NCBI GenBank assembly: GCA_016926505.1 | Contig: JAFGOM010000084.1 | Location: 1 to 35,472, forward strand | Source of the DNA: Methanospirillaceae archaeon | GTDB taxonomy: Archaea; Halobacteriota; Methanomicrobia; Methanomicrobiales; Methanospirillaceae | Length of the DNA: 35,472 nt | Direction of reading: 5' to 3' | Shown: piece by piece, positions 5,453 through 32,442 of the stretch | Layout of the letters: the number at the start of each line of letters is the position of its first letter | How positions within the stretch are numbered: the stretch's first letter is position 1 | The notes under the pieces: generated by a model | Told to the model about the DNA's origin: nothing | The model's database searches: none | The model's input: only the letters and a program-made list of their open reading frames with translations | Program-made: the position numbers and the translations under genes

Positions 5453-6340
5453 TTAATACTTATACCATCGCCCCTTCTCATCGTACTCTCCCTGCTCTGT
5501 CTTTCCAGGTATCGGTCCATTATCCGGGAACCCGGGTACTTCTCTTTCGTAACGGGAGAGTATCTGGTAGCATCGGTACCGGTAACCATACCAGAAAGTT
5601 ACAAAGAGGCATGTTCCGACGGCACCGATACCGGCGGTTACCAGAAAACCATACAGCCCGAAGAATGATATCCACTCCCCTGCAGACATACCTGAAAATT
5701 GCGCCGATATCTCCTGGCTGCTCATTCCCGAATAGGGCATAAAGAGATCGGCAAGTGCAAGACTGTATATCAAAAGGCAGATTATTCCAATCAGAAATCC
5801 GGCAAGAAGGATAACAACCAGAATGCCAAGAACTGACAGGGGCCTTTTTGCAACAAGGAAAAAGCTCTCCCTGATTGAAGTAAAGATCCGGGTGTCCCGG
5901 TATACGGCGATCATGTCATAAAAAAGTGTTCCAATCACCAGAAAACAGACGATAATGCAACCGATTCCTGCAATTATGCCACTAGTGAGAGTAACTGAAC
6001 CGGTAATAACAAAGGGACTCAATGCACCAAGAATCAGAACAAAACTGATAACTAGAACAAGAAATGCAGGGAGAAGGATCGGGAAGTAATACCGTTTGGC
6101 AGACACGAAAAACCCCCTTATCGTCGGAGGATTATTCCCGAGTGATGCCAGTGTTCCGGCCACGAAAAAAGGGAGAAGAACTGCAAGCAGGATTGCCACA
6201 CGACTTGCGATAAAGAGGGTTGAGTAGTAGCACAAAAGGATGCTTACAAAGACTACAAAACCGGCAAAGACACCGGGTATCCAGATGACCGGGCGGAAAA
6301 GCAACGGTAAAAGGGAAGAGGGGGGGGGCGTTTCCTGCAT
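5453..6340 (-). CDS. Polytopic membrane protein of unknown function
   Basis: This 295-aa protein has about six strongly hydrophobic segments, including IPGVFAGFVVFVSILLCYY near the N-terminus and LGILVVILLAGFLIGII near the middle, and a charged cytosolic-looking tail (KTEQGEYDEKGRW). A central soluble segment (IAVYRDTRIFTSIRESF) resembles the DUF4013 or glycerophosphodiesterase-membrane type of archaeal proteins, but I cannot assign a family securely. Its start lies 3 nt after the stop of the pyruvate-kinase-like gene, so the two form one minus-strand operon. No catalytic motif is visible. Confidence 0.7.
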   Translation of the reverse strand: MQETPPPSSLLPLLFRPVIWIPGVFAGFVVFVSILLCYYSTLFIASRVAILLAVLLPFFVAGTLASLGNNPPTIRGFFVSAKRYYFPILLPAFLVLVISFVLILGALSPFVITGSVTLTSGIIAGIGCIIVCFLVIGTLFYDMIAVYRDTRIFTSIRESFFLVAKRPLSVLGILVVILLAGFLIGIICLLIYSLALADLFMPYSGMSSQEISAQFSGMSAGEWISFFGLYGFLVTAGIGAVGTCLFVTFWYGYRYRCYQILSRYEREVPGFPDNGPIPGKTEQGEYDEKGRWYKY

Positions 6341-6343
6341 AAA

Positions 6344-6934
6344 TCACCGGTTCCGGGGCATCGCAACGATCTCGCGGACCTGCAGGTCAAAAAACCGCTG
6401 TGTGTGCGAAGGTTTTATGACACAGACGGTATCAGCGCCTGAAGCGGTACCACCAACGGCTATCACCTCACCATCAGGAGAGAGGACACCCTGATCGGTA
6501 GCGATAAGCACGCATTCGATTGCAACTTTTAAGCCCACTGCAACAACGCGCCTGAGTGATTCAGATACTGCTTCACTCCGTGATCCTCCTCCCACCTTGG
6601 GGGATGCAGAGAATGCCCGTTCAAGTCCTGACAAAACATGAGTTCCCGTGATGATACGGCTCCCGGAAGCACGAATCTCTTCAGCAATCCCCTGGTCAAA
6701 CTCCCATATCCCGGGTTTTGAAAACCCGACCACGTGCGTGACAATAACCAGCTCTAATTCACTTTCAGCAAGTGCACGATGAAAAGAGAGCGCTGTTTTA
6801 CCGGATGTACTTGCAACGACCAGAGTTTTGATGCCGGTTTCCCGGGCACGCTCAATGGCCATCCTGACACAGTCCCCGGTATTCTCCGGACCCGGGTTCT
6901 CGAAATAGTAGATTTTTTTTGTGCTGAAACTCAT
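6344..6934 (-). CDS. Pyruvate kinase alpha/beta (C-terminal) domain-like protein
   Basis: A 196-aa stand-alone protein related to the C-terminal domain of pyruvate kinase (COG1751 type). Visible features are TLVVASTSGKTA near residue 40, the central LVIVTHVVGFSKPG, and the tail GGTASGADTVCVIKP. It lacks the catalytic barrel, so it is not a pyruvate kinase; the function of these free domains is unknown, with a ligand-binding role plausible. The frame is open to 6961, but the ATG at 6934 precedes the conserved sequence and avoids crowding the divergent ychF promoter. It leads a two-gene unit with the downstream membrane protein. Confidence 0.75.
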   Translation of the reverse strand: MSFSTKKIYYFENPGPENTGDCVRMAIERARETGIKTLVVASTSGKTALSFHRALAESELELVIVTHVVGFSKPGIWEFDQGIAEEIRASGSRIITGTHVLSGLERAFSASPKVGGGSRSEAVSESLRRVVAVGLKVAIECVLIATDQGVLSPDGEVIAVGGTASGADTVCVIKPSHTQRFFDLQVREIVAMPRNR

Positions 6935-6974
6935 AATAACGATACCGACGTCTGGAACCATAAAAGGAATGTCT

Positions 6975-8144
6975 ATGATAACACTCGCTCTTGCCGGAAA
7001 ACCAAACTGTGGAAAGTCGACCTTATACCGTGCAGCAACAATGGCGCACGCAGATATCCAGAACTACCCGTTCACAACAATCGATGCAAACTTCGGGATT
7101 GCGTACGTGCGGGTGCCCTGTGCATGCCGTGATCTCGGACTCTCATGTGGCAGCTGTACTTCCGGGATCAGGTATATCCCGATAAATTTGATCGATGTTG
7201 CCGGCCTTGTTCCTGATGCCCATGCTGGTAAAGGGCTTGGAAACCAGTTCCTTGATAACTTAAGACAGGCAGATGCCATCATCAACGTCATCGATGCAAG
7301 CGGGGGTACTGATCTGGAGGGAAACCCGACTGAGATCGGGGCCAATGATCCCCTCGAAGAGATAGACCTTGTCAGGAATGAGATGGCAATGTGGCTGTTT
7401 GGTATCATTGGTAAACACTGGCCAAAGATGCAGCGTCAGGCACAACAGAGATCATATTCACTGGAGAGTGGTCTTGCAGAGATCCTTGCCGGTCTTGCCA
7501 TCTCAGAGCAGGACATCCTGGATGCAGAGCATTCCTCAAAAGTCAGCCTGAAGGGTGCCGGAGAAGAAGAACTCCTGATTTTTAGCCGGGAACTGCTTCG
7601 CATCTCAAAACCGATAATCGTTGCAGGAAACAAGACTGATATTGCTTCCAAAGACTCGGTAACCCGGCTGTCACAGAACAATGTGCGTCTTGTCAGCGGA
7701 GCTGCAGAGCTGGCACTGAGGCAGGCGGCATCTGCAGAATTTATCAGTTATAACCCGGGAGACACGGCTTTTCTGATACCAGAACCTGATAAACTCTCTT
7801 TAGCCCAGAAGAAGGGCCTCGATGCCATTGCTACCTACATGAAGGAGCACGAAGGAACAGGGGTTCAGGCGGTCCTGAACCATGCGGTCTTTGATCTTCT
7901 CCAGATGATCGTGGTATACCCGGTCGAGGATGAGAACCAGTATATGGATAAACGGGGAAGAATCCTGCCTGATGCATTTCTGATAAAAAAGGGATCAAAT
8001 CCTCACGATCTCGCTTTTATGGTACATTCTGATATCGGGGCCGGATTTTTATATGCAGTGAATGCAAGGACAAAGATGCGTATCAAGGAGAGTTATGAAC
8101 TTCAGAATGGTGATATCATCAGAATTGTCAGTACTGCCAAATAG
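6975..8144 (+). CDS. ychF: YchF/OLA1-family P-loop ATPase with TGS domain
   Basis: A 389-aa protein of the YchF (Obg-like ATPase) family. G1 is AGKPNCGKST near residue 10, the switch region is DVAGLVPDAHAGKGLGNQFL, and NKTD supplies the G4 position. A TGS domain fills the last 70 residues (FLIKKGSNPHDLAFMVHSDIG onward). The family associates with ribosomes and stress responses; bacterial and human members prefer ATP. A Cys cluster (CACRDLGLSCGSC) near residue 42 is a possible metal or redox site. ATG codons lie at 6969 and 6975; AGGA at 6965-6968 is ideally spaced for 6975, giving the start MITLALAG. Confidence 0.9.
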   Translation: MITLALAGKPNCGKSTLYRAATMAHADIQNYPFTTIDANFGIAYVRVPCACRDLGLSCGSCTSGIRYIPINLIDVAGLVPDAHAGKGLGNQFLDNLRQADAIINVIDASGGTDLEGNPTEIGANDPLEEIDLVRNEMAMWLFGIIGKHWPKMQRQAQQRSYSLESGLAEILAGLAISEQDILDAEHSSKVSLKGAGEEELLIFSRELLRISKPIIVAGNKTDIASKDSVTRLSQNNVRLVSGAAELALRQAASAEFISYNPGDTAFLIPEPDKLSLAQKKGLDAIATYMKEHEGTGVQAVLNHAVFDLLQMIVVYPVEDENQYMDKRGRILPDAFLIKKGSNPHDLAFMVHSDIGAGFLYAVNARTKMRIKESYELQNGDIIRIVSTAK

Positions 8145-8183
8145 AGGCTGATATTTTAGGTGAAACAGAAAAAACAATGCGTA

Positions 8184-8193
8184 TTTTTAAATA
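8184..8193 (+). promoter_or_regulatory. TATA box placing transcription start at the ATG (leaderless)
   Basis: TTTTTAAATA is centred about 26 bp before the ATG at 8215, the usual TATA-to-start distance in archaea. The message is therefore probably leaderless. Confidence 0.6.
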
Positions 8194-8214
8194 GAAAGGA
8201 AACAACTTTTTATT

Positions 8215-8535
8215 ATGGGAGGTGAGGTGTATCAGGCGCAGGTTATCAGGAATTTTTTTGATACGATTACCGGAACGGACAGAAACCTCACCCGGATTTA
8301 CATGTGTGTGATAAGCCTTGCAAAGCTGAGACACGAAGATCCCGACCGGGTCTCTGCACTGGTTGAACAGATACAGAGAAGCAAGGTAAAGAAAGAGTTA
8401 TCTATTGATATTCTTGAATATGTCTGCGATATCGCCTCAGAACTTGAGATGAATGCTGTCCGGACAGCGTTTGGGGTAAAGGAGATCCGGGACATGGTCG
8501 AGGACTTTCGGGGAATCAGTATCGATTCGCTCTGA
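8215..8535 (+). CDS. Conserved-looking hypothetical protein, 106 aa
   Basis: A 106-aa, probably all-helical soluble protein with a mixed charge pattern (DPDRVSALVEQIQRSKVKKE in the middle). No signal peptide, membrane segment or catalytic motif is visible and I do not recognise the family. A well-placed TATA box and in-frame codon usage like the neighbours support a real gene. GGAGGTGA follows the ATG at 8218 and is therefore not a usable Shine-Dalgarno for this start. A T-rich stretch at about 8549-8566 could end transcription. It sits alone between ychF and a nucleotidyltransferase. Confidence 0.65.
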   Translation: MGGEVYQAQVIRNFFDTITGTDRNLTRIYMCVISLAKLRHEDPDRVSALVEQIQRSKVKKELSIDILEYVCDIASELEMNAVRTAFGVKEIRDMVEDFRGISIDSL

Positions 8536-8710
8536 TTCTCTGCAGACCATTCCTTTCCTGTTTTTCCCACTGAATCACCCGTCAAAAAAAAAGGGACTAA
8601 TACTGCCCTATTATTCTGTATGACCATCCTGTATCCTCTTTAGGTCTTTTATCCCTGTCAGGGGGGATTTGAGGAGGAACCGGTATCGTTTTTCAGTCAC
8701 CGTTTATCTC

Positions 8711-8720
8711 TTATATCTAT
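8711..8720 (+). promoter_or_regulatory. TATA box of the nucleotidylyltransferase gene
   Basis: TTATATCTAT lies about 30 bp before the ATG at 8747, which implies a leader of only about 5 nt. Confidence 0.55.
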
Positions 8721-8746
8721 ATCGTTTAACGAACCATAGTAGGGTG

Positions 8747-9925
8747 ATGAAAGTCTGTATCATGTGCGGGGGTGAAGGAACCCGGTTACGCCCGCTTACA
8801 TTTGACCGGCCAAAACCATGTATCCCGATTGGTAACATTCCTTCATTATGTCACCTGGTATCACACCTTGCCAATCTCGGGTTCTCTGAAGTAATCATTA
8901 CAACCGGATACAAGGGTGATGCCATCGGGAAGATCCTGGGAGATGGATCCCTGTTTGGTGTGACGATAACCTACGTGTATGAAGAGACAAAACTCGGCAC
9001 TGCAGGAAGCGTCAGGAATGCCATGGAGTACCTGAAAGGCAGTACTTTTCTCGTCGTTGGCGGGGACCACCTGACTGATCTCAACCTTATCGAGTTTTAC
9101 CGCGAACACCTCTCTCATGATGCCATGATAACCGTGGGACTCATCTCGATTGATGAGCCAAAAGACTATGGTATAGCCGAGATCGATATCAGGAACCGTA
9201 TCTTACGGTTTGCAGAAAAGCCGGGTCCGGGGGAGATATTCTCAAATCTCGCAAGTACCGGCATGTATGTTTGTAACCCCGAGATCTTTGATTATATACC
9301 GGCAGGCCAAAAGTTCGACTTTGCCAAGGATCTCTTCCCGCTCCTCTTACAAGAAGGAAAAAAAATAAACGGCTGGCTTGCCAGCGGGAACTGGTCAGAT
9401 GTCGGAAGTCCGCTCTCTCTCCGTGCAGCAGAGAAATGGCTGCTTCATAAGATCCCGTATACCGATATCACCGGAGACCTTGATGTGAAGAACGCAACGA
9501 TTCAGGGACCGGTACGGTTCGGGGGATCCATCTCACTCGGACAGCATGCACGAATCATCGGACCGGTTTCAATCGGACACGGAACAAAGATAGGTGACGG
9601 CGTTCTTATCGGACCCTACACAAGCATCGGGAACCAGTGTGTTATCAGGGATAATGCAAAGATATTCTCATCATCCCTCTATAATCAGGTAATAATCGGG
9701 AGTAATACCACAATTTCGGGAAGTATCATTGATAACGATACCACGATAGGAGAAGAATGTACCATCGAGCACGACACGGTCATCGGCCCGCGGGTTGTTA
9801 TCAGGAACGGGTGCATTGTTCATACCAGGATTCGGATCTGGCCTGAGGTTGTCATAAAGGAGAATAGTATCGTAAAGGCTCACGTGATGAATGAGAAGTA
9901 CGACACAAAATTTGAGGGATCGTAA
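8747..9925 (+). CDS. Sugar-phosphate nucleotidylyltransferase with left-handed beta-helix
   Basis: A 392-aa NDP-sugar pyrophosphorylase. The signature GGEGTRLRPLTFDRPKP is at residues 7-23, the metal-binding VGGDHL near 105, and the EKP motif near 165. The C-terminal 150 residues are hexapeptide repeats (for example GPVSIGHGTKIGDGVLIGPY), forming a left-handed beta-helix as in GlmU-like or mannose-1-phosphate guanylyltransferase-like enzymes. The product is an activated sugar for glycans or lipids; which sugar cannot be read from sequence. The frame extends to 8669, but the conserved motif and the TATA box position support the ATG at 8747. It is separate from the ManC-type enzyme at 32.8 kb. 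Confidence 0.85.
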   Translation: MKVCIMCGGEGTRLRPLTFDRPKPCIPIGNIPSLCHLVSHLANLGFSEVIITTGYKGDAIGKILGDGSLFGVTITYVYEETKLGTAGSVRNAMEYLKGSTFLVVGGDHLTDLNLIEFYREHLSHDAMITVGLISIDEPKDYGIAEIDIRNRILRFAEKPGPGEIFSNLASTGMYVCNPEIFDYIPAGQKFDFAKDLFPLLLQEGKKINGWLASGNWSDVGSPLSLRAAEKWLLHKIPYTDITGDLDVKNATIQGPVRFGGSISLGQHARIIGPVSIGHGTKIGDGVLIGPYTSIGNQCVIRDNAKIFSSSLYNQVIIGSNTTISGSIIDNDTTIGEECTIEHDTVIGPRVVIRNGCIVHTRIRIWPEVVIKENSIVKAHVMNEKYDTKFEGS

Positions 9926-9930
9926 AAGAC

Positions 9931-10716
9931 CTAATAATACCGGGATATCCTGCTTGTACCCGCGACAAGGGGATGGCGGGCGTAATCAAGGATCTCAATA
10001 TCATCGAGATTTCGGAGATGCATCGCATGGGCGGTTCGTTCAAGACCAAGTTCCATATCAGAATTGATCGTGATGATGTATGCCTCTAAAATCTTGATCC
10101 CAAGTTTTTTTGCTGCTACTGCACGATGGTGGCCATCCACGAGCAGTGTCTTTCTGGGTTTTTTAATTACAATAACCGGTTCAGCAAGACCTTTCTGAAT
10201 CTCATATATCCTTCCTTCAAGTTCATCCATGTAAATCTTGGACTGGGTGGGAAGAAGTTCGGTAATCCTGACCGGTCCCCGTGAGAGGGCTGGTTTTAAT
10301 CCATGAAGACGCTCAAGGGTATCGATAAATTTATGCACCTTCTCCGGGGAGACGTGCTCTATCTGGGATCGGACCACGTCGGTGTTTGATATGATACCTA
10401 AAAGCCGGTTATCCTCATCCACAACCGGGAGTTTTTGTATCCCTGACCTGATGATAACCCGTGCAACATCACTGATAACCATATCCGGTTCAGCGACAAT
10501 GAGACGATGACTCATAACATCCTTTACTGAAGATTCAGGGGTAACAAAGAGGAGATCACGTGCCGAGATGTATCCTACCACCTCGTTATCATCAACAACA
10601 GGAAATCCGTCATGCGTACTTCGTTTTATTGCATCAATCACATCCTGTACCGTCCCCCTTACATCGATGGTATCGACATCATAGGTCATGTAATCCCTGA
10701 CCCTTTTTTTATCCAT
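9931..10716 (-). CDS. CBS-domain pair fused to ParB-like domain
   Basis: A 261-aa soluble protein. Two CBS repeats occupy roughly residues 8-115 (SARDLLFVTP and ISNTDVV end the two repeats). A ParB/sulfiredoxin-like domain follows, with VDGHHRAVAAKKLG near residue 195, the box II-type G-H-H-R motif. CBS pairs bind adenine nucleotides. The ParB-like fold here binds or hydrolyses nucleotides in some families, or may act on a protein or small molecule. Such fusions are recurrent in methanogens, with unknown function. It stops 5 nt from the convergent nucleotidylyltransferase stop and has its own promoter region facing the FKBP-like pair. Confidence 0.82.
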   Translation of the reverse strand: MDKKRVRDYMTYDVDTIDVRGTVQDVIDAIKRSTHDGFPVVDDNEVVGYISARDLLFVTPESSVKDVMSHRLIVAEPDMVISDVARVIIRSGIQKLPVVDEDNRLLGIISNTDVVRSQIEHVSPEKVHKFIDTLERLHGLKPALSRGPVRITELLPTQSKIYMDELEGRIYEIQKGLAEPVIVIKKPRKTLLVDGHHRAVAAKKLGIKILEAYIITINSDMELGLERTAHAMHLRNLDDIEILDYARHPLVAGTSRISRYY

Positions 10717-10866
10717 AAAAGAGAATGGTACGCCTCTGCTTCATTAAAAGTGATCGACAATACAGGGTTTGAGATCGGTTTCGCCCGGGCATACCAGCTC
10801 AGTCACATGAGATGGGAAAGACCGGGAGTGCCATGTTTATCTCTCTGGAAGATGATCATATAGGGA

Positions 10867-11565
10867 ATGAAAGGATACCGTCATAAGTCAGAAGAGGAAA
10901 AAAAACCAGTGAATTGGAAACAGATTGGGATTATTATCGCCTGTGTACTCTTTGCAGTGGTCATGATCGTTGCCGGGATGGGAAGCAGCTGGTTAAACGT
11001 ATTAAAAGATGCAAAACCGGGAAATACTGCCAATATTGACTTTACATTCAGGGATGCCATGAACAGGCCAATCATTACCACCAGCTCCAATATCATGGAA
11101 AAAGGGCTAAAAGACGGCAATATCGTTTTCAAGGCATACCAGATGATAGTCCCGGTCAATATATCAGCAAATACAGACCTTGAGACCGTGCCGGTTGCAC
11201 ATCCCAATATTCCGAATCTGGTCTACTTTGGCCTGACAGGAGATGAGATCGATGCTATCCGGTTCGGCGTGACCGGAATGAAGGTCAACGAGGATCGTGT
11301 CATCAGGCTCCCTGAAAACCAGGGTATGATCGGTCTTATTGAAATAAAGACAATGAATGAACAGTTCCAGACACAGATAAACATGGCAAAACCGGGAGAC
11401 CAGGTACTCATGCCATTTATCTACAACCAGGACGAGTCTGCCGGCAATACTTCTGAGGAGGCATATTACCGGACGGGAACGCTCATCTCAAAGAACGATG
11501 ATGAGGCCGTTATCAATTACCAGTACCCCACCATCGAGATCAGGCTTACCCAGTTAAACAACTGA
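10867..11565 (+). CDS. Membrane-anchored FKBP-like protein (tandem copy 1)
   Basis: A 232-aa protein with a cytosolic basic N-terminus, one membrane segment (about residues 18-37) and an exported domain. That domain begins with GNTANIDFTFRDAMNRPIITT, resembling the first strands of FKBP, and later has DAIRFGVTGMKVNEDRVIRLPENQG, which aligns by eye with the FKBP segment where the substrate loop ends in a conserved G-M-x-x-G pattern. An insert of about 50 residues resembles an IF (insert-in-flap) region. Peptidyl-prolyl isomerase or chaperone activity outside the membrane is inferred; aromatic active-site residues are poorly conserved. TTTAT at 10836-10840 gives a near-leaderless start. A paralogue follows 24 nt downstream. 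Confidence 0.6.
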   Translation: MKGYRHKSEEEKKPVNWKQIGIIIACVLFAVVMIVAGMGSSWLNVLKDAKPGNTANIDFTFRDAMNRPIITTSSNIMEKGLKDGNIVFKAYQMIVPVNISANTDLETVPVAHPNIPNLVYFGLTGDEIDAIRFGVTGMKVNEDRVIRLPENQGMIGLIEIKTMNEQFQTQINMAKPGDQVLMPFIYNQDESAGNTSEEAYYRTGTLISKNDDEAVINYQYPTIEIRLTQLNN

Positions 11566-11579
11566 TTTTTCTTTTTTTA
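11562..11579 (+). terminator. T-rich tract between the tandem FKBP-like genes
   Basis: Two runs of T (5 and 7) directly after the first stop match the T-tract terminators of archaea. It may attenuate read-through into the second copy. Confidence 0.4.
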
Positions 11580-11589
11580 GTGAATTCCC

Positions 11590-12270
11590 ATGAAGAATAC
11601 GATATTACTCATCACAGCAGTTCTTGTGACGGTTCTTGTTTTTCTCTTCATCTCTGCAGGATGTATCCAACCCGATACCCGGTCAGGTGCAGAGGTATCA
11701 GGATTGGATAATGCGGGTGTGATCCCGGGGATGAACGCTACGGTCGGGTTTACTTTCTTTGATGAGACCGGCAGACCGGTAGTAACGACTGACAAATTAG
11801 TCTTCTCATCTGCATATCAGGCCGGAGGACTTGTCTTCTTCTCTGATCGTATCAAAATCCCAGGCAATACCTCATCAGGAGTTGACAGAATAAGTCTCCC
11901 TGTCAGTCATCCGGGTATGAATGAAAGCATGAGTTATACGCTCTTTGGCCCGGAGCTTGATACCATCAGTTATGGAATCATCGGCCTTAAACCCGGTGAA
12001 AAAAAGACACTGTCAAACCCGATGCAGGATTTAGTAAAAACGATAGCCATCGATAAATTTGCAGGCATCGTCGGGGAGGATTTTGCAGAGGCTGGTCCGG
12101 GAGAACAGGTTCTCATCGGCTTTTCAGAGACCCCTCTCATAGCGGTGGACGATACCCGGATAAAAGTCCCGATACGGGTAGCTGATGTTCTGGGAAGGGA
12201 TGAGAAAGGAGTGACCATATCATATGGTTCTCCACGAATAGAGGTATATCTCGTAGATACAGAGCAGTAA
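11590..12270 (+). CDS. Lipoprotein FKBP-like protein (tandem copy 2)
   Basis: A 226-aa protein with a hydrophobic signal (residues 4-23) ending in a lipobox-like SAGC (Cys25), so it is probably a lipid-anchored surface protein. It resembles copy 1 in order of elements: MNATVGFTFFDETGRPVVTT, the segment LPVSHPGMNESMSYTLFGPELDTISYGIIGLKPGEKKTL (matching copy 1's PVAHPN...FGLTGDEIDAIRFGVTGMK), GPGEQVLIGF, and a C-terminal VTISYGSPRIEVYL. The two arose by tandem duplication and diverged in anchor type. FKBP-like folding activity is inferred from the fold-level match, not shown. The stop is 4 nt from the convergent HVO_0476-type gene. Confidence 0.6.
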   Translation: MKNTILLITAVLVTVLVFLFISAGCIQPDTRSGAEVSGLDNAGVIPGMNATVGFTFFDETGRPVVTTDKLVFSSAYQAGGLVFFSDRIKIPGNTSSGVDRISLPVSHPGMNESMSYTLFGPELDTISYGIIGLKPGEKKTLSNPMQDLVKTIAIDKFAGIVGEDFAEAGPGEQVLIGFSETPLIAVDDTRIKVPIRVADVLGRDEKGVTISYGSPRIEVYLVDTEQ

Positions 12271-12274
12271 CCGG

Positions 12275-12865
12275 TCAGACACGAAACCCGTATATCCGTT
12301 TTATCTTACTTGCCGGTTCATACTTCCCCTCTCTTTTTCGTATGGAACCATCCCTGTTCTTGATATGGGTAATCCGGTATCTGATTGTTTTGTGTGTTCC
12401 TGCTTTGTATAATTCACCAACAACAAACTGCTCATCACCGGTACAGGTCACATACAGGGGTATGGTGGTTTTGCCGTCATGGACCGATATCCGGACGACC
12501 ACCATGTCAATAACCCGTGTCCAGAGTGTCGTGATATCAGGTGCCTCTGCTGATTGTACCCGTCTGTCTTCTACTTCTATTGACATCACCTCTACCCCTG
12601 CACCTTCGCCATCAGGACATTCGGCAACGATCCTGTCACCAGCCGTTATCACCTCATCCTCAAAAAATTCAGCGAAACAGACTGAAGAATGGTCTTCCCT
12701 GCTTACAATGGTCTTAACCCGTACCTGGTCAGGTTCTTTCGGGGGCTGTACTTTTCGTATCGTCTGACACGAAGAACACTGAATGACCAGAAGGTGAGAG
12801 GAGGCCAGTACATCATGCTCAGTATCCTCTTTGCAGACCGGGCAATAATCCATAACGCGATCCAT
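12275..12865 (-). CDS. HVO_0476-type zinc-finger protein
   Basis: A 196-aa archaeal protein beginning with a zinc ribbon: CPVCKEDTEH at the N-terminus and CSSC about 20 residues later. The rest is a beta-rich domain (VVRISVHDGKTTIPLYV, then KAGTHKTIRYRITHIKNRDGSIRKREGKY) ending in basic residues. It matches the archaeal zinc-finger family COG1326/HVO_0476, whose role is unknown; nucleic acid binding is plausible from the ribbon plus basic tail. Starts at 12865 (MDRVMDYCPVC) or 12853 (MDYCPVC) are both possible. It is divergent from the DUF371 gene with only 30 nt between starts, so the two promoters overlap. Confidence 0.75.
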   Translation of the reverse strand: MDRVMDYCPVCKEDTEHDVLASSHLLVIQCSSCQTIRKVQPPKEPDQVRVKTIVSREDHSSVCFAEFFEDEVITAGDRIVAECPDGEGAGVEVMSIEVEDRRVQSAEAPDITTLWTRVIDMVVVRISVHDGKTTIPLYVTCTGDEQFVVGELYKAGTHKTIRYRITHIKNRDGSIRKREGKYEPASKIKRIYGFRV

Positions 12866-22477: not shown

Positions 22478-22551
22478 GGGCTCGTGGTCTAGCTGGTTAT
22501 GACGTCGCCTTGACATGGCGGAGGTCCTGAGTTCGAATCTCAGCGGGCCCA
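22478..22551 (+). tRNA. tRNA-Val (anticodon GAC)
   Basis: A 74-nt cloverleaf: acceptor GGGCTCG pairing with CGGGCCC (one T-G pair), a D arm GTC/GAC, anticodon stem TCGCC/GGCGG around the loop TTGACAT giving anticodon GAC, variable loop, T arm CTGAG-TTCGAAT-CTCAG, and discriminator A. CCA is not encoded and no intron is present. T-rich sequence follows the 3' end. Confidence 0.96.
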
Positions 22552-23000: not shown

Positions 23001-23381
23001 TCATAGTGAATGAATAAGTGTCCGTACCCGTTCGAGAAGTTCAATCTGATGAGAATAATCTCCTTCAATCGATCTCTCTATCTGATCGATTATCTCATCC
23101 GGTGGGTAGACAAGGCTGTATACCTTTACCGGTCTTCCTTTATTTTCTGTGAGAAGGCTTGATATCTGAACCCAGCCTTTCTTCATGAGGCTCGTTATCG
23201 CAATACTGACTTCAGGTTGCCGAAGATCGGTATTGCGTTCGATATCACGTGATGTCACCTCGGCACTTCTCATAAGAAAGACCAGTACACGGGCTTCATT
23301 GCTCTTCAGCCCCATAATTCTCATAATTCCGGTCATCTCTTCATCGATCTCAGAAAATTGAAGATTTCCATCAACAACCAT
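23001..23381 (-). CDS. Winged helix-turn-helix transcriptional regulator
   Basis: A 126-aa DNA-binding protein. A winged HTH spans about residues 20-95: LKSNEARVLVFLMRSAEVTSRDIERNTDLRQPEVSIAITSLMKKGW, followed by a wing with NKGRPVKVYSL. The C-terminal 30 residues (EIIDQIERSIEGDYSHQIELLERVRTLIHSL) look like a coiled-coil dimerisation helix. It resembles archaeal TrmB/ArsR-type regulators without an effector domain. The start codon is preceded by a strong minus-strand TATA box and overlapping palindromes, suggesting self-repression. It lies about 210 nt downstream of the end of the PAS signalling operon, on the same strand. Confidence 0.8.
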   Translation of the reverse strand: MVVDGNLQFSEIDEEMTGIMRIMGLKSNEARVLVFLMRSAEVTSRDIERNTDLRQPEVSIAITSLMKKGWVQISSLLTENKGRPVKVYSLVYPPDEIIDQIERSIEGDYSHQIELLERVRTLIHSL

Positions 23382-23594: not shown

Positions 23595-25871
23595 CTACAG
23601 AGGATTAATCCGGAAAAACCCCTTTGGAACGAGAATTTCAAACCGTGCACCTTTTCCCCTAATTCCGGTCTCGGTGATACTGCTCCCGGTAAGAGCAAGG
23701 ATCTCCCGTGCCAGAAACATCCCGTACCCGGTATTTTTTCCGTAACCTCTGGCAAAAATCTGCTTTTTTTCTTCATCGGCAATGCCGGTACCGTTATCTT
23801 CCCACACTAGTACCAGATCATTACCACAAGAGACTCTTGAGAGGTGTATCCGGGTTACCCGCTCCCCATGCCGTAGTGCATTATCAAGCAGGTTGTAAAA
23901 GACCTTCTCAAGCATCGGATCTCCATATACACAAACACCTTCACAGTCAGTGCAGACAGAAACCGTGTCAGGAACAGGCAGTCGTGAGATAATTGACGTA
24001 ATATCCTGCCATTGTGGTTTTTCTGTCCCGAGATCCTGGTATATTCGTGTGAACTCGATCTGGTTCCTGATGCTCTTTGTTGCACATTCTATCTTTGTGA
24101 GATACTCACCCATTTCAGGATCTTTGCAGATCATATCTGCAAATTCCAGGTACGAGAGGATGATCGTGATCCCGTTTAAGATATCATGCCTTGTTATCCC
24201 GTTAAGCAGGTTTAACTGGCGGTTTGCCTCCCGAAGTGATTCTTCAGTCTTTTTCCGTTCCGTAATATCCAGGTTGGCACCATATGTCTTTATCGTGCGA
24301 CCGGATTCATCCTTGACAACACCAATGCGTACCTGAATATACCGGATCTCCCCGTCTCTTCTGATGATCCGGTGCTCGCGCTGAGACTGATAACAGGGGT
24401 CAGACGTCTCGAGTGCCTTTTTTTCCTCTTCCAAAACAACATCACGGTCCTCATGAGGGATAAATTCCCGGGCATACGTTTCCGGTGTCATGTGGATACC
24501 ACCCTCCTGCTCTTTTGTTGTTCCATAGAATGCATAGAAACGTTCATCAAAGGTGAAAAATCCGGTTTTTACATCATACTCCCAGTTTACAAGATCTGCA
24601 ATATCCATGGCACCTGCGAGCTTTCTCTGGCTTTCTAAAAGGGCATTCTCGATCTGGATCCTCTCGATATCAGCAGAAGCCTTCACTGCAATAATCTCTA
24701 AAAACTCCCGGATATTCAAAGGCGGGTACTGAATCGGATCCCGGAAGAGTACGCAAAGGATCCCAAAGACCTCTCCGAGAGAGTTAAACAGCGGGACACC
24801 CATGTACCCTTTGATCTGAATCGGGGCAATCGCTGCTGTGAAGGGATATATCACATCAACATTATCAGGACTGATGCAAAAACCGTTCTTTACAGCCGTC
24901 TCACAGGGAGTACCGGGCAGGGCATAGGAAAAACCAGAGACCTCATTCCCGTCAAGAAGCATGGATAAAACAGTGACTGTCTCTTTTTTTGAAGAAATTT
25001 CCCCAATCATAACACAATCAGCGTGCAGCCATGAGCATACATTCTCTGCAATCGTGCGAAGGGCATCTCTTCCGGTTATCCCGACAATACTTTTAAAAAG
25101 GGTTTGAAACGCAATTTCAGAAGATTTACGAGCAGTAATATCCTCAAAGGACGACAAAATATAGGGTTTTCCCTTCATGATAACAAAACAGGAAGACATA
25201 AGTCCGTTTATCGTCCTTCCGTCCTTGTTCCTGCAGGTTATCTCCATGGCATGTACGTCCTGCCAGTTCTGTAACGACGTGACGAAACGCATATATTCAT
25301 CAGAATCGACATAGAGTCCCAGTTCTTTTGCGGTCTTTCCAATCACTTCCTCCCTGCCATACCCGGTACTCCTGACAAAGGCATCGTTTACATCAACAAA
25401 AACTCCATTTTTGGCAGATACAACAGCAAGTGAAGTCGGGTTATGGGTAAAGATCGTGGTAAACTTCCTCTCAGACTCACGCAATACATCCTCCACATTC
25501 TTCTGAAGGGTCAGGTCAACGGTCATGGTCATGATGGCTGGTTCATTCCCGAAACTGACCGGTATAGCAGAGAGAAGAATATGCATATTGCTGCCGTCTT
25601 TCCCGGTGACTGTCATCGGAATACTCTCAATTTTTCCCTTTTTGCGGATTATATCCATCGCCTTTCTGAATGTATCCCGGTCAATGAGGCCCTGCTTTAC
25701 CGGATCTCTGCCGATAACCTCGTCCTCCCGATACCCGCTTGCGGTCAGAAATGCCGGATTGACCGCAATAATTTTCCCGTCTGATGCACGGTTCAGGGTA
25801 ATTGGATACGGGCTGTTAAAAAAGACCGTTTTGAATTTATCTTCACATTCAGTCTCTTCTGTTTCTGTCAT
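23595..25871 (-). CDS. PAS-PAS-GAF-PAS sensor histidine kinase
   Basis: A 758-aa soluble kinase. Domains in order: PAS (about 10-130), PAS (135-255), GAF (260-415), PAS/PAC (420-550, ending TYGANLDITERK), and a methanogen-type kinase core. The phospho-acceptor region has GITRHDILNGITIILSYLE near residue 565. The ATP-binding domain has NLLDNALRHG, WEDNGTGIADEE and GYGMFLAREI. No membrane segment is visible, so sensing is probably intracellular (redox, ligand or partner protein). The start overlaps the stop of the REC-PAS gene by ATGA. The kinase core is similar to that of the 1263-aa protein in the same operon. Confidence 0.88.
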   Translation of the reverse strand: MTETEETECEDKFKTVFFNSPYPITLNRASDGKIIAVNPAFLTASGYREDEVIGRDPVKQGLIDRDTFRKAMDIIRKKGKIESIPMTVTGKDGSNMHILLSAIPVSFGNEPAIMTMTVDLTLQKNVEDVLRESERKFTTIFTHNPTSLAVVSAKNGVFVDVNDAFVRSTGYGREEVIGKTAKELGLYVDSDEYMRFVTSLQNWQDVHAMEITCRNKDGRTINGLMSSCFVIMKGKPYILSSFEDITARKSSEIAFQTLFKSIVGITGRDALRTIAENVCSWLHADCVMIGEISSKKETVTVLSMLLDGNEVSGFSYALPGTPCETAVKNGFCISPDNVDVIYPFTAAIAPIQIKGYMGVPLFNSLGEVFGILCVLFRDPIQYPPLNIREFLEIIAVKASADIERIQIENALLESQRKLAGAMDIADLVNWEYDVKTGFFTFDERFYAFYGTTKEQEGGIHMTPETYAREFIPHEDRDVVLEEEKKALETSDPCYQSQREHRIIRRDGEIRYIQVRIGVVKDESGRTIKTYGANLDITERKKTEESLREANRQLNLLNGITRHDILNGITIILSYLEFADMICKDPEMGEYLTKIECATKSIRNQIEFTRIYQDLGTEKPQWQDITSIISRLPVPDTVSVCTDCEGVCVYGDPMLEKVFYNLLDNALRHGERVTRIHLSRVSCGNDLVLVWEDNGTGIADEEKKQIFARGYGKNTGYGMFLAREILALTGSSITETGIRGKGARFEILVPKGFFRINPL

Positions 25872-27112
25872 TTTTGTTGAGAGATATCGATAAAAAAGAT
25901 TCTGAATCCCGTGATCTCCCCGTCATGGGAGACGAGTGTGATGGTTAGGATTGCGGGAAAGGTGCTCCCGCCCCTTTGTACCAGCGTATACTCTCCGGGT
26001 TTAGCAGGTTCCGATGGGATCCGGGTATCCCGTATTGACTGAAGATCTGAATGATGAGATATATCGATAAGGGAGAGGAAAGAAATACCGCTTTTCAGAT
26101 CCACAGGAGATATCTGTAACGAGTTGAGTGCATTCCGGTTTGCATAGGTCACCAGCAGATCCCGGTTGAGTTCACAGACACCAAGAGGCAGGGATTCTGC
26201 AATATCACTGAATGATATCTTCTCTGCTCTGGTAAAACCCTCCTGTGTATCTGTTTGGATCTCACAAACCGACTCGATTGCACCGGTTACATCCCCTTCA
26301 TCGTTATGCAGGAGAGCTGCCCTGATACAGACCGGAATCGTTCCTTTTGCATGATGGGTAATAACAGAAGATGCGGTGATGGTCTGACGGGTTTTTGCAA
26401 TATCATGATACCTATCAGGAATCATCTCATCAGGGGCATCAATCAGATCGACAAGAACCGGTGTTTTTTTGCCGTACAAGGCTTCTGCATAGGCATAGTC
26501 ACCTTTTTTCAGGATCTCACCGGCAGGTACTCCGGTCATCTCTGCAATAGCCTTGTTCCAGGCAGTCACCGTGCCTGACCGGTCGATAGCAAAGGTTGCA
26601 TCAGGAAGGAAATCGATGATATCAGAGAACTGTCGGATTTGGGAAGAGAGTGAGAGTTCGGCCTTCCTTCCCCTGACTGCCTGTTTAATTCTATGAACCA
26701 GTTCGGCAAACTGTGCCTTTGGATTGCCTCCTTTCTGAAGATACGAATCTGCACCGTTGTTGATGGCCTCTATCACTACCTCTTCGCGTCCCCTTCCGGT
26801 AAAGATGATAAACGGGATAGTACCATACTCACGCCTGACATGCTTGAGGAACTCTATCCCGTCCATATCAGGCATCTGGTAATCTGATATGATGACATCG
26901 TAGGAGCTGATATCCATGGAGTCAAGAGCAGTTCGTGCTGAAGCTGCGGTATCAACTGCAAATTCACCGGTCTCTTCGAGAATGATCTCAACCACCTTTA
27001 ACAGGTTGGGTTCATCATCCACATAGAGCACAGAGATGAGTTCCCTCTCTGTATCCTGCACGGTATGGGTACTACCGATACCAGCAACCTTTTCTGCAAC
27101 CATTGCCATCAT
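25868..27112 (-). CDS. Response regulator receiver with two PAS domains
   Basis: A 414-aa protein. The N-terminal 140 residues are a REC domain: acidic pair in LYVDDEPN, phosphorylation Asp in DVIISDYQMPDMDG, and Lys in SYLQKGGNPK. Two PAS domains follow (about 165-290 and 300-410), the last ending in FRIFFIDISQQK. There is no DNA-binding or kinase output. REC plus first PAS is very similar to the same part of the neighbouring 1263-aa kinase, so they are duplicates. GGGAG lies 5 nt before the ATG. It probably passes phosphoryl or conformational signals to the kinase encoded immediately downstream. Confidence 0.87.
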   Translation of the reverse strand: MMAMVAEKVAGIGSTHTVQDTERELISVLYVDDEPNLLKVVEIILEETGEFAVDTAASARTALDSMDISSYDVIISDYQMPDMDGIEFLKHVRREYGTIPFIIFTGRGREEVVIEAINNGADSYLQKGGNPKAQFAELVHRIKQAVRGRKAELSLSSQIRQFSDIIDFLPDATFAIDRSGTVTAWNKAIAEMTGVPAGEILKKGDYAYAEALYGKKTPVLVDLIDAPDEMIPDRYHDIAKTRQTITASSVITHHAKGTIPVCIRAALLHNDEGDVTGAIESVCEIQTDTQEGFTRAEKISFSDIAESLPLGVCELNRDLLVTYANRNALNSLQISPVDLKSGISFLSLIDISHHSDLQSIRDTRIPSEPAKPGEYTLVQRGGSTFPAILTITLVSHDGEITGFRIFFIDISQQK

Positions 27113-27124
27113 ACTCCCATTTTT

Positions 27125-30100
27125 TTATTCTTCGATCCGGAATGCATCCTGCGGCACCTGCATCTCGAACCGTGCACCTGCCCCGAACATTCCTGTCTCT
27201 TTGATCGTGACCCCGGTAAGAGAGAGGATCTCTTTAACCAAAAACAATCCGAAACCGCTATTTTTCCCAAATCCATGTTCAAATATCTTGTCTTTATCCT
27301 GATCAATAATCCCTGGCCCGTCATCTTCCCAGACAAGGACAAGGCTGTCTCCTGTAAGGTATGAAGAGACAACGATTTGGCTCTCCGTTCCTCCATGCCG
27401 TATGGTATTATCCAGCAGATTAAAAAAGACCTTCTCTATCATGGGATCTGCAAACAGAGTGACATTGTGCAGATCTGTCTGCAGGGATATATCCTCTGGA
27501 ACCGGGAGCTTCTTTAGTATCGTTTCCGGCTGTACCCATACCGGATCCTGGATCCCAAGACCATCATAAATTCGCGTAAACTCGATCTGTGACTGAATTA
27601 CTTCTGTGGTAGATTCAATCGTATTGATATACTCTGTAAGCCCGGGATCCTGGTATCGTTTTCTGACCAGCTCAAGATAGGCAAGGATTATGGTAATCCG
27701 ATTGAGGATATCATGCCGGGTTATGCCAGATAACAGGTTCAGCTGCCGGTTTACTTTTCGGAGAGCATTCTCTGCTTCTCTGCGTTTGCTGATATCCCGG
27801 GTTACCCCGACAAATCCCACAGGTTTTGTACCCTCCAAAACCATGTTTGCGATAAGCTCGGCCCAGACGGTTGAACCATCTTTCCGATACAGTTCAATTT
27901 CCAGGATTTTTTCTGATAAAACGTTCTCTTTATTCTTCAGAGCATGTATGAGAAACTCGTACCCTTCTCTTACTTTATTGAAGGACTGCGGTGTCATCAT
28001 ATCACTGACCGGCATCTGTATCGCGTCTTCCTGTAGAAATCCGGTAAGCATCCTGATCGACGGGGAGATATAGATCATGTTCAGGTCAAGATCTGCAGTC
28101 CATATGACATCATGAACATTATCAGCAAGTAACCGGTACTTCTCCTCACTCTCGCGAAGCGCCATCTCAGCCCGTTTTCTCTCGGTAACATCCCGCATTG
28201 AGACCTGTGCACCGGTAAAGACAGTGTCTGATAATATGGGCACTGCATGAAGATTCAGGTACGCAGTATCACCATTCTTTTTTGTGATAACGATATCCAT
28301 GTTCTCAATGCTGATACCATTCTTCAGTTCCTGCACAAAAACAGCAATACCGGTGTTTGCATCAATCCGTTCCTGCTCTGCAAAAAAACCGATAGACTGA
28401 CCGGTTAATTCATCGGGATCATACCCGGTGATAGTCAGAGCTGAGGGAGAGACATATGAGATGATCAGATCAGCAGAGAGGACTACAATCAGGTCTGATG
28501 ATCGTTCTGCCATTCCGCGGAACCGCTCCTCGCTCCTCTTCAGTGCATCTTCAGTCTGTTTGTGACGGGTGATATCCTCATCAACACCACAGTAACCGGA
28601 GAACAACCCGTTCTCATCATACATCGGAGTTCCACTCGTTTTTAAATAAACCGGTTTCCCGTCTTTGTGCAGATTAACATTGGTAAAATCATGGAATGAC
28701 TGCTGTGACTGAAATACAGAGAGAGCCTTCTCCTGTAATAAATCACGAACTGATGGTTCAAAGAGGTCATAGAAGTGTTTTTTTCCCACGAGTTCATCAG
28801 GCCTGAATCCGAGGATATGTTCGACTGCAGGGCTGCAGTACCAGTACCGGCCTTCGGTATCCACCTCCCAGACAAAGGATCCTGCATTCATCGTGACCGC
28901 CAAAAACCGCTGTTCACTTCTTCTTAGTCTCTCTTCGAAGTTCTTCTGCCTCGTGACATCAGTCACAATTCCTTCAATAGCTACGGCTCTGCCATCCTCA
29001 TCTGCAACCACCACGTTTCTCTGGTTCACCCACCTGACACTTCCATCCCGATGGATAATCTGGAACTCATAATAAGGAGGGGCCCTGTTTTCCATAAGGG
29101 CAGAGTACTCTCTTTGCAGGTACTCACGCCATGCCGGATGAATCGTATGATTGAGGATTAAGGGATCACAATAGAATTCTTCAGGTTCATACCCGGTAAT
29201 CTCAACCGATGCAGGGCTTACATACTCGTATTCCCCGCCGGGAAGTAACCGGCGGAAGATCATGTCAGGAGCCTGGTTTGCAAGGCGGAAAAACTTCTGT
29301 TCACTCTCATGCAGGGCATCCCGGGCCGCCTTCTCATCAGTGATATCGTGAGCAATCGAACCAAACCGGAATCCCTTGTCAGTATGTATGGGGAATATCA
29401 CCTGCCGGATAGAGATCCTTCTGCCATCACTCTGCTGTGCCGCAACGATCCTCTGCCCTGAAAAGATGGGAATCCCGGTTGCAAACGATCTCTCTACCTT
29501 CTCGTACAGTGTTTTTTTTGTTCCCGGCAGGCGCTGATCCTCAGGCAGCAGAGAGATGAGAATGTCACCGATGTACCTGCAGATTGCATCTTTTTTTCTG
29601 ATCCCAAAGATGCGTTCTGAGCCTGCGTTCCACTCAATAACAATGCCCTCTTCATCGGTAAGGATTACTGATTCCCAGGTTGTCTCAATAAAGGAACGTA
29701 ACCGTGATTCACTCTCTAAAAGAGCAGTTTCTGCCAGTTTCTGCAGGGTAATATCCCTGCCAACCACCTGAAACTCTACCAGCTGTCCGGTTTTATCAAA
29801 TAATGCACGGATGGTCCAGTGGTGCCAGTACAACTGATTGTCCCTGCCAGTATCTTCCTGTTCAATCTCATAAATCGGAGACTGAGGAGAGAGGAATGAG
29901 AGAAGATTCTCAGAAACCCCTTCTTCTGCCAGCTGCAGAATATCCCGTATATGCATTCCTTTTATCCCGGAATGATCGAGCATCGGGATAAAAAATAAAC
30001 GGAAAGCCTCGTTCGTAAAGGTTATTATCCCCTCCGGAGAGAAACGCACAATCATCTCAGTCTGGTCATTGACGATGGACTGATACTGTTCCCTGCTTTT

Positions 30101-30916
30101 TTTGAGCTCCTCTTCTGTCTTTTTTATGGAACTGATATCGCGTACCGACTCTATTGCCCCGGTTATCTCACCCTTCTCATCATAGAGCAGACAGGCCTTG
30201 CCAAGAACCGTTATCGGTTCTCCCCCCTGCTTAAAAATCGTTGTCTCGGCACTAATTGAGGTTTTTGTCCGGCTGATATCGTGATAATTCTCTGCAATGA
30301 CTTCCAGAGGAGCGTCGATGAGATCAATCAAAACAGGACGGGTTACTCCATGGAAAGGGATTCCGTAGGCATGATCACCCTTACCCAGCATATCTTTTTT
30401 CGATACTCCGGTCATCTCTTCGATAGCCCGGTTCCATGCGATAACGATACCGGAACGGTCGATGGCAAACGTTGCATCAGGAAGGAAATCGATGATATCA
30501 GCAAGCTGTTTCTGTGATTGAACAAAGGAACGTTCAGCCTCCTTTCTCCTGACCGCCTGTTTTACCTGGTACACCAGCTCAGCAAACCCGGCTTTTGGAT
30601 TGCCTCCTTTCTGGAGATACGAATCTGCCCCGTTATTGATGGCTTCGATACCGATCTCTTCCCTGCCTCTCCCGGCAAAGATAATAAACGGGATATCACC
30701 GTACATGTTTCGCACCGTTTTGAGAAATGCGATACCGTCCATGTCGGGCATCTGGTAATCAGAGATTATCACATCATATGACCTGATATCCATAGAATCA
30801 AGGGCTATCCGTGCAGAGGCAGCGATATCTACATGAAACTCTCCGGTCTGCTCAAGAATTATCTGTACTACCCGTAAGAGATTGGGTTCGTCATCAACGT
30901 ACAATACTGATATCAT
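27125..30916 (-). CDS. REC - seven PAS - histidine kinase hybrid, 1263 aa
   Basis: A soluble sensor with receiver at the N-terminus (DDEPNLLRVV, Asp in DVIISDYQMPDMDG), then about seven PAS domains, which begin near DIIDFLPDATFAIDR, QYQSIVNDQTEMIV, LRSFIETTWESVIL, FFRLANQAPDMIFR, FLAVTMNAGSFVWE, FRGMAERSSDLIVV and YRLLADNVHDVIWT. It ends in a kinase core (GITRHDILNRITIILAYLE, NLLDNTIRHGG, WEDDGPGI, GFGLFLVKEI). No membrane helix is visible. It is the first gene of a three-gene operon; the next gene starts 12 nt after its stop. The upstream region contains a TATA-like CTATTTATTC (minus strand, about 31003-31012) and an AGAATG/CATTCT inverted repeat at 30941-30962. Ligands are unknown. Confidence 0.9.
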   Translation of the reverse strand: MISVLYVDDEPNLLRVVQIILEQTGEFHVDIAASARIALDSMDIRSYDVIISDYQMPDMDGIAFLKTVRNMYGDIPFIIFAGRGREEIGIEAINNGADSYLQKGGNPKAGFAELVYQVKQAVRRKEAERSFVQSQKQLADIIDFLPDATFAIDRSGIVIAWNRAIEEMTGVSKKDMLGKGDHAYGIPFHGVTRPVLIDLIDAPLEVIAENYHDISRTKTSISAETTIFKQGGEPITVLGKACLLYDEKGEITGAIESVRDISSIKKTEEELKKSREQYQSIVNDQTEMIVRFSPEGIITFTNEAFRLFFIPMLDHSGIKGMHIRDILQLAEEGVSENLLSFLSPQSPIYEIEQEDTGRDNQLYWHHWTIRALFDKTGQLVEFQVVGRDITLQKLAETALLESESRLRSFIETTWESVILTDEEGIVIEWNAGSERIFGIRKKDAICRYIGDILISLLPEDQRLPGTKKTLYEKVERSFATGIPIFSGQRIVAAQQSDGRRISIRQVIFPIHTDKGFRFGSIAHDITDEKAARDALHESEQKFFRLANQAPDMIFRRLLPGGEYEYVSPASVEITGYEPEEFYCDPLILNHTIHPAWREYLQREYSALMENRAPPYYEFQIIHRDGSVRWVNQRNVVVADEDGRAVAIEGIVTDVTRQKNFEERLRRSEQRFLAVTMNAGSFVWEVDTEGRYWYCSPAVEHILGFRPDELVGKKHFYDLFEPSVRDLLQEKALSVFQSQQSFHDFTNVNLHKDGKPVYLKTSGTPMYDENGLFSGYCGVDEDITRHKQTEDALKRSEERFRGMAERSSDLIVVLSADLIISYVSPSALTITGYDPDELTGQSIGFFAEQERIDANTGIAVFVQELKNGISIENMDIVITKKNGDTAYLNLHAVPILSDTVFTGAQVSMRDVTERKRAEMALRESEEKYRLLADNVHDVIWTADLDLNMIYISPSIRMLTGFLQEDAIQMPVSDMMTPQSFNKVREGYEFLIHALKNKENVLSEKILEIELYRKDGSTVWAELIANMVLEGTKPVGFVGVTRDISKRREAENALRKVNRQLNLLSGITRHDILNRITIILAYLELVRKRYQDPGLTEYINTIESTTEVIQSQIEFTRIYDGLGIQDPVWVQPETILKKLPVPEDISLQTDLHNVTLFADPMIEKVFFNLLDNTIRHGGTESQIVVSSYLTGDSLVLVWEDDGPGIIDQDKDKIFEHGFGKNSGFGLFLVKEILSLTGVTIKETGMFGAGARFEMQVPQDAFRIEE

Positions 30917-31227: not shown

Positions 31228-32442
31228 CTATACAAGCGGTATCTTCTGAAATATAAATCCCTGCAATGACTGATCCATCTCTTCAAAAAGAGGTGCTCCA
31301 TACAGGAAGGTAAAGATATCATCTGCCATCTTTTCCGGGTTCACATCGGTAAACTTGTCAGGATACATCATTTTTCCGAGGAAATAGGCATTTGCAATGA
31401 CAGAACCGTAATTAAAACCATAGTGCTGTGAAGGAAACAGCCCGTACACCGAGCCGTCACTGATTGCAGATATCCTCGTATAGGTGGGATAGGTTCGGAG
31501 TTCTGTTATCGCATTATCTGCATTTTTGAGCGTTGCCAGATCGATAAAGACAGCATCCGGTTTCTCTGCTACCAGATCAGTAAGAGAGATGTGTACCACG
31601 GTATTCCCGTCATCGGCAAGTTCTGCTCTTGTAATCGCAATCGAAGACGGAATCTGATCGATCCTCGCAAGAATAAAAGGCAGATAACCCGGGGTGGTGT
31701 CAAGAATGTCCCGGGTATACCCGAATGAACTGCCACCCACGTATGCAGTTTTTTTCAGGTCTTTTGAAAGGACGATGGTTCTGTCCTGCAGGTTACCGGT
31801 CAGGGTCCGGAAGAATAAAATTACCGCTTCAGATCTACTCCTTTTCTGCAGCACCGTCCCAAGGAGACGCAGGCTGTTCTCAAACTCATCCTTTTTCATA
31901 TTCAGATCGCCGGGACTCGTTACTATCACCGGGATACCGGTTTTGGCCTGCAATTCATCAGGATTATCGGTTCTGATGCTGTGAGTCGAAAAGATGACAT
32001 CAGGTGCGGGAGAGAGCATACTGATACGATCCAGATCCGGTACGCCTGACTCATCGGAGACTGCAGGAAGACGGAACAGCCCCGGATACAGGGACTGATA
32101 TTCATTGGTATCTCTGCTCCCGGGAGCAAGAAACGGTTTATCAACCGCTGCTATCAGATCATGGGCATCTAACATGACAAGAAGGCTGACACATCCCTCA
32201 CCAAGGCAGATTACATGAGAGATATACCGGGGAACCGCCACCTGCCGGCCTGCAGAATCATAGACGATCATCGAACCGGCATCAACATTGATACCTTCAA
32301 TCTCAGCGATCGAAGGACCGGGGATAGTGGGAACCGGAGTCAAAACATCATTCCTGCCGTCCGGTGAGATACATCCGCAGCTGATGAGGAGGGATCCCAG
32401 AAGAAAAAGGATCAGCCCATATTTTGGCAAATAAGCGGCCAT
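31228..32442 (-). CDS. ABC transporter substrate-binding lipoprotein, BtuF/FepB-like
   Basis: A 404-aa exported protein. The signal peptide ends in a lipobox LISC (Cys22), giving a membrane-anchored surface receptor. The mature part begins with a linker (VPTIPGPS) and the TroA/BtuF fold: DSAGRQVAVPRYISHVICLG, then LLVMLDAHDLIAAVD, then PAPDVIFST, typical of Fe-siderophore, cobalamin or other metal-chelate binders. Shine-Dalgarno AAGGAG lies about 8 nt before the ATG. No permease or ATPase gene lies on either side in this window, so it is an orphan receptor here. The ligand is unknown; cobalt corrinoid or iron chelates are the family expectation. Confidence 0.84.
   Translation of the reverse strand: MAAYLPKYGLILFLLGSLLISCGCISPDGRNDVLTPVPTIPGPSIAEIEGINVDAGSMIVYDSAGRQVAVPRYISHVICLGEGCVSLLVMLDAHDLIAAVDKPFLAPGSRDTNEYQSLYPGLFRLPAVSDESGVPDLDRISMLSPAPDVIFSTHSIRTDNPDELQAKTGIPVIVTSPGDLNMKKDEFENSLRLLGTVLQKRSRSEAVILFFRTLTGNLQDRTIVLSKDLKKTAYVGGSSFGYTRDILDTTPGYLPFILARIDQIPSSIAITRAELADDGNTVVHISLTDLVAEKPDAVFIDLATLKNADNAITELRTYPTYTRISAISDGSVYGLFPSQHYGFNYGSVIANAYFLGKMMYPDKFTDVNPEKMADDIFTFLYGAPLFEEMDQSLQGFIFQKIPLV

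Follow-up and report, generated by a model that had tools for sequence, protein, structure and literature searches.

The window analysed here, a stretch of 35,472 nt from a methane-producing archaeon of the Methanospirillaceae (GenBank assembly GCA_016926505.1, contig JAFGOM010000084.1; contig C93 of the 121 that make up this 2.94-Mb genome), contains three co-directional signalling genes on the minus strand, two of which are well supported, on comparison with their homologues, as the products of fission of a single sensor kinase gene. Gene 1 encodes a single-chain REC-(PAS)7-histidine kinase of 1263 aa (p1), gene 2 a 414 aa REC-PAS-PAS protein without an output domain (p2), and gene 3 a 758 aa PAS-PAS-GAF-PAS-histidine kinase (p3). 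The front end of the first two, consisting of the receiver and the first PAS domain (PAS1), also appears with good support to have been duplicated in this lineage. We consider it probable that both duplication and fission took place, and slightly better than an even chance that, in addition, the split is real and p2 and p3 now act as functional partners.

These layouts, proposed in an initial annotation from the sequence, were confirmed by the open reading frame (ORF) calls, Pfam searches and a purpose-built PAS profile. Pfam detects REC, PAS and HATPase_c above its cut-offs in p1, which is the layout of histidine kinases with an N-terminal receiver, with the profile counting seven PAS domains in the array. 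In p2 it finds REC and two PAS domains and nothing else, as in response regulators of the REC-(PAS)n type, whilst p3 begins with PAS, without an N-terminal REC, and continues as PAS, GAF, PAS and HATPase_c. HisKA falls below the cut-off in both kinases (16.7 versus 26.9 bits for p1); both contain the H-box GITRHDILN, and in p3 this and the ATP-binding motifs are intact. Genes 1 and 2 are separated by 12 bp, and genes 2 and 3 overlap by 4 bp (ATGA).

When joined end to end, p2 and p3 align in one piece with the 1170 aa product of a single ORF, L249, in a Methanospirillum genome (G011), with 43% identity over query positions 26-1169 and a score of 922 bits. Similarly, p3 aligns over its full length (47% identity) with a fused 1284 aa paralogue on contig C109 of the window's own genome, in which a match to the second PAS of p2 lies immediately before the part matching p3. 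Both of these colinear homologues of p3 carry REC in the same chain. On these alignments, the true fused counterpart of p2 and p3 together is L249, and that of p3 with the second PAS of p2 is the C109 paralogue.

The junction between genes 2 and 3, CAACAAAAATGACAG, consists of a run of five adenines followed by the TGA stop of gene 2, which overlaps the ATG of gene 3. Relative to gene 2, gene 3 is read in the -1 frame, and one extra A in this sequence would give a continuous frame. Read across the junction, the linker DISQQK|MTETEETECEDKF aligns without gaps to those of fused homologues, for example DLSAQKKVERELQESEEKF, and has exactly the 19 residues that dominate a census of inter-PAS linkers with both ends recognisable (193 linkers; next commonest length 15). 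Hence, as the ATGA lies in a PAS-PAS linker of the usual length, a single base separates the split from the fused state. In a search across 108 family genomes, over 30 of the matches listed span the junction (from query position 110 or lower to 250 or higher), all in one open frame without stops, and the split is therefore derived; within this sample, it is seen only in this genome. No other lesion is found in p2 or p3 across 1172 codons. With colinear single-ORF homologues and a junction within a normal linker, the pair has the features of a gene fission, and in this respect the initial annotation, which had suggested one (or a fusion), is supported.

The linker nevertheless differs from continuous ones in its residues. 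Of 198 linkers, 190 have Leu, Ile or Val at position 12, whilst the Glu at this position and the Thr at position 13 of the p2-p3 junction each occur in 0/198. A glutamate at position 12 is as expected if the helix is freed from connecting two domains of a single chain; this divergence, combined with the intact REC and kinase motifs in the two halves, would speak for a true split.

Similarity between the genes is far beyond chance. Amino acid identity between p1 and p2 is 83% in REC, 52% in PAS1 and 67% over both together, and the genes match at 75% of nucleotides over 505 bp (E 2e-94). For p1 and p3, the kinase cores share 55% of residues, and 67% of nucleotides over 294 bp. As the signalling family is large, with 60 REC matches and 45 matches to this type of kinase core in the genome, such paralogy must be weighed against many other members. 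In trees of 50 relatives, p1 and p2 are sisters when REC (support 100/99) and PAS1 (100/96) are considered separately, hence the duplication of this front end, also proposed initially, is well supported and is specific to this lineage. The PAS1 branch is around three-fold longer in p2 (0.88, versus 0.31 in p1). Recent gene conversion seems an unlikely source of the similarity, synonymous positions being largely diverged across most of the tract, with two better conserved patches.

The proposed match between the kinase cores stands as far as their identity and shared GITRHDILN motif are concerned, but a sister relationship was not established: both cores have relatives in other species that are as close or closer, the tree does not place the two clearly, and the approximately unbiased (AU) test neither requires nor rejects their sisterhood (p = 0.549). 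Nearest relatives in unrelated loci, which the initial annotation had named as the sign that would count against it, are thus found at equal closeness for the kinase cores, and not for the receivers.

Beyond REC, PAS1 and the kinase, p1 has no sensory module in common with p2 and p3. Following PAS1, p1 has six PAS modules and no GAF, whereas the split pair has PAS, PAS, PAS, GAF and PAS, and a domain-by-domain search found that PAS2-PAS7 of p1 and the modules of p2 and p3 have different best relatives and occupy different places in longer proteins. Gene 1 was consequently rejected as the fused parent or counterpart of genes 2 and 3, which match other fused proteins. The original suggestions that genes 2 and 3 together equal the domain order of gene 1, and that fused and split versions of the same system lie side by side, do not hold; the fused forms are L249 and the C109 paralogue.

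However, the two sets of modules are found together elsewhere. In 12 related proteins, each set is represented by at least two modules, the 2203 aa product of L167 having the order REC, PAS1, p1-PAS2, p1-PAS6 (a weak match), p3-PASb, p1-PAS4, p1-PAS5, p3-GAF, p3-PASc, p1-PAS7 and kinase. Where a protein has two or more module types (60 proteins), a common order is followed by 264 module pairs and broken by 24 (91.7% agreement), compared with a mean of 62% and a maximum of 69% for order-shuffled sets optimised in the same way; as the proteins are not phylogenetically independent, this comparison is a description rather than a p-value. The modules of p1 and those of p2 and p3 look like complementary parts of a longer ancestral array that were retained following duplication, the alternative being shuffling of modules from a shared pool. 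A rough hand estimate for such complementarity, around 0.002 to 0.06, depends on the assumed size of the ancestral array and is not a formal p-value. In genome G011, a p1-type gene at 5951-9022 of locus L256 (PAS6, PAS4, PAS5, PAS7) adjoins a convergent gene of the p2/p3 type at 9057-12524 (PASb, GAF, PASc), and this pair may represent an old neighbourhood of the two types.

The receivers of p1 and p2 differ at a critical residue. That of p2 has all five key residues (the Asp pair, phospho-Asp, Thr/Ser and Lys). That of p1 keeps the Asp pair, phospho-Asp and Lys, with the Thr/Ser after strand beta-4 (Thr87 of CheY) replaced by Ala, a substitution found in p1 only amongst 214 unique REC sequences, 210 of which have Thr or Ser. 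This position couples phosphorylation to the conformational switch, hence the receiver of p1 is probably a poor switch and that of p2 competent; the working receiver of the operon would then be p2, acting in trans. It has been noted that up to 40% of N-terminal REC domains in such kinases may not be phosphorylated (PMC5847659).

From the observed anatomy, REC-PAS1 duplication, fused homologues, junction position and residue states, we infer the following history and mode of action. A long REC-(PAS/GAF)n-histidine kinase gene would have been duplicated in tandem in this lineage, with the copies carrying different sensory modules, and the second copy split when the frame shifted by a net one base within a PAS-PAS linker, resulting in p2 and p3. 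Translation of genes 2 and 3 is probably coupled through the ATGA overlap. Most likely their products still work together: p2 would dock on p3 at its N-terminal PAS, using the PAS-PAS interface which, in relatives, is covalent. It would be phosphorylated on its intact receiver by p3, and possibly by p1, and when docked would modulate the p3 kinase in trans. For its part, p1 would remain a single-chain kinase, the receiver of which lacks the switch threonine, with free p2 serving as the working receiver.

The overlap of genes 2 and 3 falls within the overlaps and short distances taken to mark translationally coupled heteromeric pairs (PMC10666635), and in Haloferax pairs spaced this closely show an 8-fold enrichment for subunits of complexes (PMC10666635). 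With the fused homologues, it makes formation of a p2-p3 complex a reasonable inference. The lack of a Shine-Dalgarno sequence before gene 3 was discarded as a sign of a broken gene, since seven of the 11 ATGA pairs in the stretches of this genome surveyed also lack one; nor is such a sequence essential for reinitiation in Haloferax (PMC6728339).

A number of points weigh against this reconstruction. The split is known from a single genome, where a base could be missing from the assembly, and the divergent linker could also mean that the two halves have drifted apart functionally. Both the p2-p3 interaction and the phosphotransfer are deduced from sequence comparison; furthermore, stand-alone REC-PAS-PAS-PAS proteins exist without a neighbouring split kinase, hence p2 might not require p3. 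A tandem duplication has support for the front end but not for the entire gene, as the trees do not resolve the p1 and p3 kinase cores, and PAS6 of p1 falls outside the consensus module order.

Among the other explanations is that the split is real but either p2 or p3 is at an early stage of decay into a pseudogene. Precedents can be found in the family: at 3333-6440 of L080, on contig C22 of the same genome, a gene encoding REC and five PAS domains precedes what is left of a kinase, interrupted by several stops and frame changes, so that the whole is apparently a decayed REC-PAS-kinase, and the p3 homologue at 5899-7971 of L254 (genome G023) is broken into several short frames with stops, hence decay is not limited to the genome studied here. 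However, given the absence of further lesions in p2 and p3, and the retention of the receiver, H-box and ATP-binding motifs, we consider decay unlikely.

It is also rather unlikely that the split is an error of sequencing or assembly, the run really being A6 and genes 2 and 3 making up an unbroken 1172-codon gene (REC-PAS-PAS-PAS-PAS-GAF-PAS-kinase) next to its duplicate. A single base does restore a continuous frame with a linker of canonical length, each junction-spanning relative among the matches listed is a single ORF, and the comparison covers one genome of the genus; yet the linker lacks the residues kept in continuous linkers. Miscalling of A5 for A6 is unusual in short-read data, which would count further against an error if this genome was sequenced with short reads.

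It is conceivable, but quite improbable, that the A5/UGA is a programmed or switchable frame site, which would yield a free REC-PAS-PAS receiver plus a fused kinase, either by -1 slippage or by reversible A5/A6 changes between cells; were this so, the cell would set the ratio of detached receiver to self-gated kinase. Programmed -1 ribosomal frameshifting, by which a single message would give p2 as well as a p2-p3 fusion, would accord with the frame of gene 3, with the ability of the P-site codon AAA to re-pair one base back on AAA, and with the prediction of a stem that begins 10 nt past the A run. However, the site lacks a canonical X XXY YYZ heptamer, its spacer is rather long, and the predicted fold gives a weak signal; meeting at an ATGA overlap is ordinary for genes of this genome, the linker residues important in a continuous chain have been lost, and there is no second split homologue on which conservation could be judged, making frameshifting very improbable. 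Equally hard to credit is that p2 and p3 were never one gene here, a stand-alone REC-PAS-PAS regulator gene having come to precede a PAS-kinase gene: REC-PAS-PAS-PAS proteins with 37-39% identity to p2, of a described class (PMC5847659), do occur in relatives, but such an origin would account neither for the gap-free 19-residue linker nor for full-length colinearity with single ORFs, and no other overlapping pair of this kind was found in the loci surveyed. Within this genome, the surveys covered what searches and selected stretches reach; another candidate split pair there, on C45 (a 359 aa REC protein and a 631 aa HAMP kinase), does not have this layout.

Archaeal kinases of the REC-(PAS)n-HisKA-HATPase type, common in methanogens, were described by Galperin et al. 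in 2018, together with REC-(PAS)n regulators and tandem duplication, at which time the partners of these regulators were unknown and the kinases without experimental characterisation (PMC5847659). The same kinase layout is found in p1, the C109 paralogue and L249, differing in that the p1 receiver lacks the Thr/Ser switch and p3 is the kinase part without its receiver. Whilst p2 resembles the REC-(PAS)n response regulators (PMC5847659) in having no output domain, it differs in apparently originating from fission of a kinase gene, the ATGA overlap with the remainder giving a predicted partner. Two or three REC-PAS-kinase genes in tandem are common in Methanomicrobiales (L145, L177, L153, L148, L193 and others), and several of their ends overlap or nearly touch. 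The present genes are adjacent and co-directional like other archaeal tandem two-component genes (PMC5847659; L145, L153, L177, L193), but one copy is split and the copies have complementary sensory modules.

In CheA3 and CheA4 of Rhodobacter sphaeroides, the functions of one kinase are likewise placed on two proteins proposed to form a complex (PMC3591291). There, however, the phosphoacceptor and catalytic domains are separated, whereas in the present case the receiver and sensory front end is detached; as p3 has both H-box and HATPase, the p2-p3 pair does not count as a split kinase of the CheA3/CheA4 kind. Nor is either kinase a hybrid histidine kinase, with REC C-terminal to the kinase core, as REC is N-terminal in p1 and absent from p3. 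The additions to what is known are a documented fission at a linker, complementary module sets in a conserved order, and the prediction of a partner.

The relatives of this genome are Methanomicrobiales, such as Methanoregula, Methanolinea and Methanospirillum. No synteny with the fused homologues was found for the immediate neighbours of the cluster. Directly downstream of gene 3 lies a winged-helix gene, the family of which is present in 60 of the 61 genomes searched, mostly as a single copy; the second match in this genome, on C6, contains a stop. It was rejected as a cognate output, given this distribution and with no link to the kinases established. A tRNA gene further downstream and a periplasmic-binding-protein-like gene around 310 bp upstream of gene 1 also lie nearby (Table 1).

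Table 1. Positions of the genes and sequence features discussed, numbered along the window.
Feature	Position	Strand	Description	Basis
Gene 1 (p1)	27125..30916	-	REC-(PAS)7-histidine kinase, 1263 aa	ORF, Pfam, domain profile, REC residues
Gene 2 (p2)	25868..27112	-	REC-PAS-PAS, 414 aa	ORF, Pfam, REC residues
Gene 3 (p3)	23595..25871	-	PAS-PAS-GAF-PAS-histidine kinase, 758 aa	ORF, Pfam, motifs
REC and PAS1 of gene 1	30131..30916	-	Duplicated in gene 2	Trees, alignment
REC and PAS1 of gene 2	26252..27040	-	Sister of the gene 1 segment	Trees, alignment
Junction	25860..25874	-	A5 run; gene 2 stop overlapping gene 3 start	Sequence, alignment with fused homologues
Inter-PAS linker	25832..25889	-	19 residues across the junction	Linker census, alignment
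Stretch with predicted stem	25780..25872	-	Just downstream of the A5 run; 11-bp stem starting 10 nt after it	Fold z -2.23; 5/200 shuffles as good
tRNA-Val (anticodon GAC)	22478-22551	+	Between serA and the winged-helix gene	
Winged-helix gene (TrmB/MarR-like)	23001-23381	-	126 aa	
Peripla_BP_2 gene	31228-32442	-	Periplasmic-binding-protein-like	

A fission pair that has continuous homologues in its relatives predicts a specific partner, in this case p2 for p3, and the pair could serve as a two-protein test case for the gating of a kinase in trans by an N-terminal receiver. The sharing of PAS modules in ordered subsets across this family offers a way into the question of how a single array gives rise to the many sensors of methanogens.

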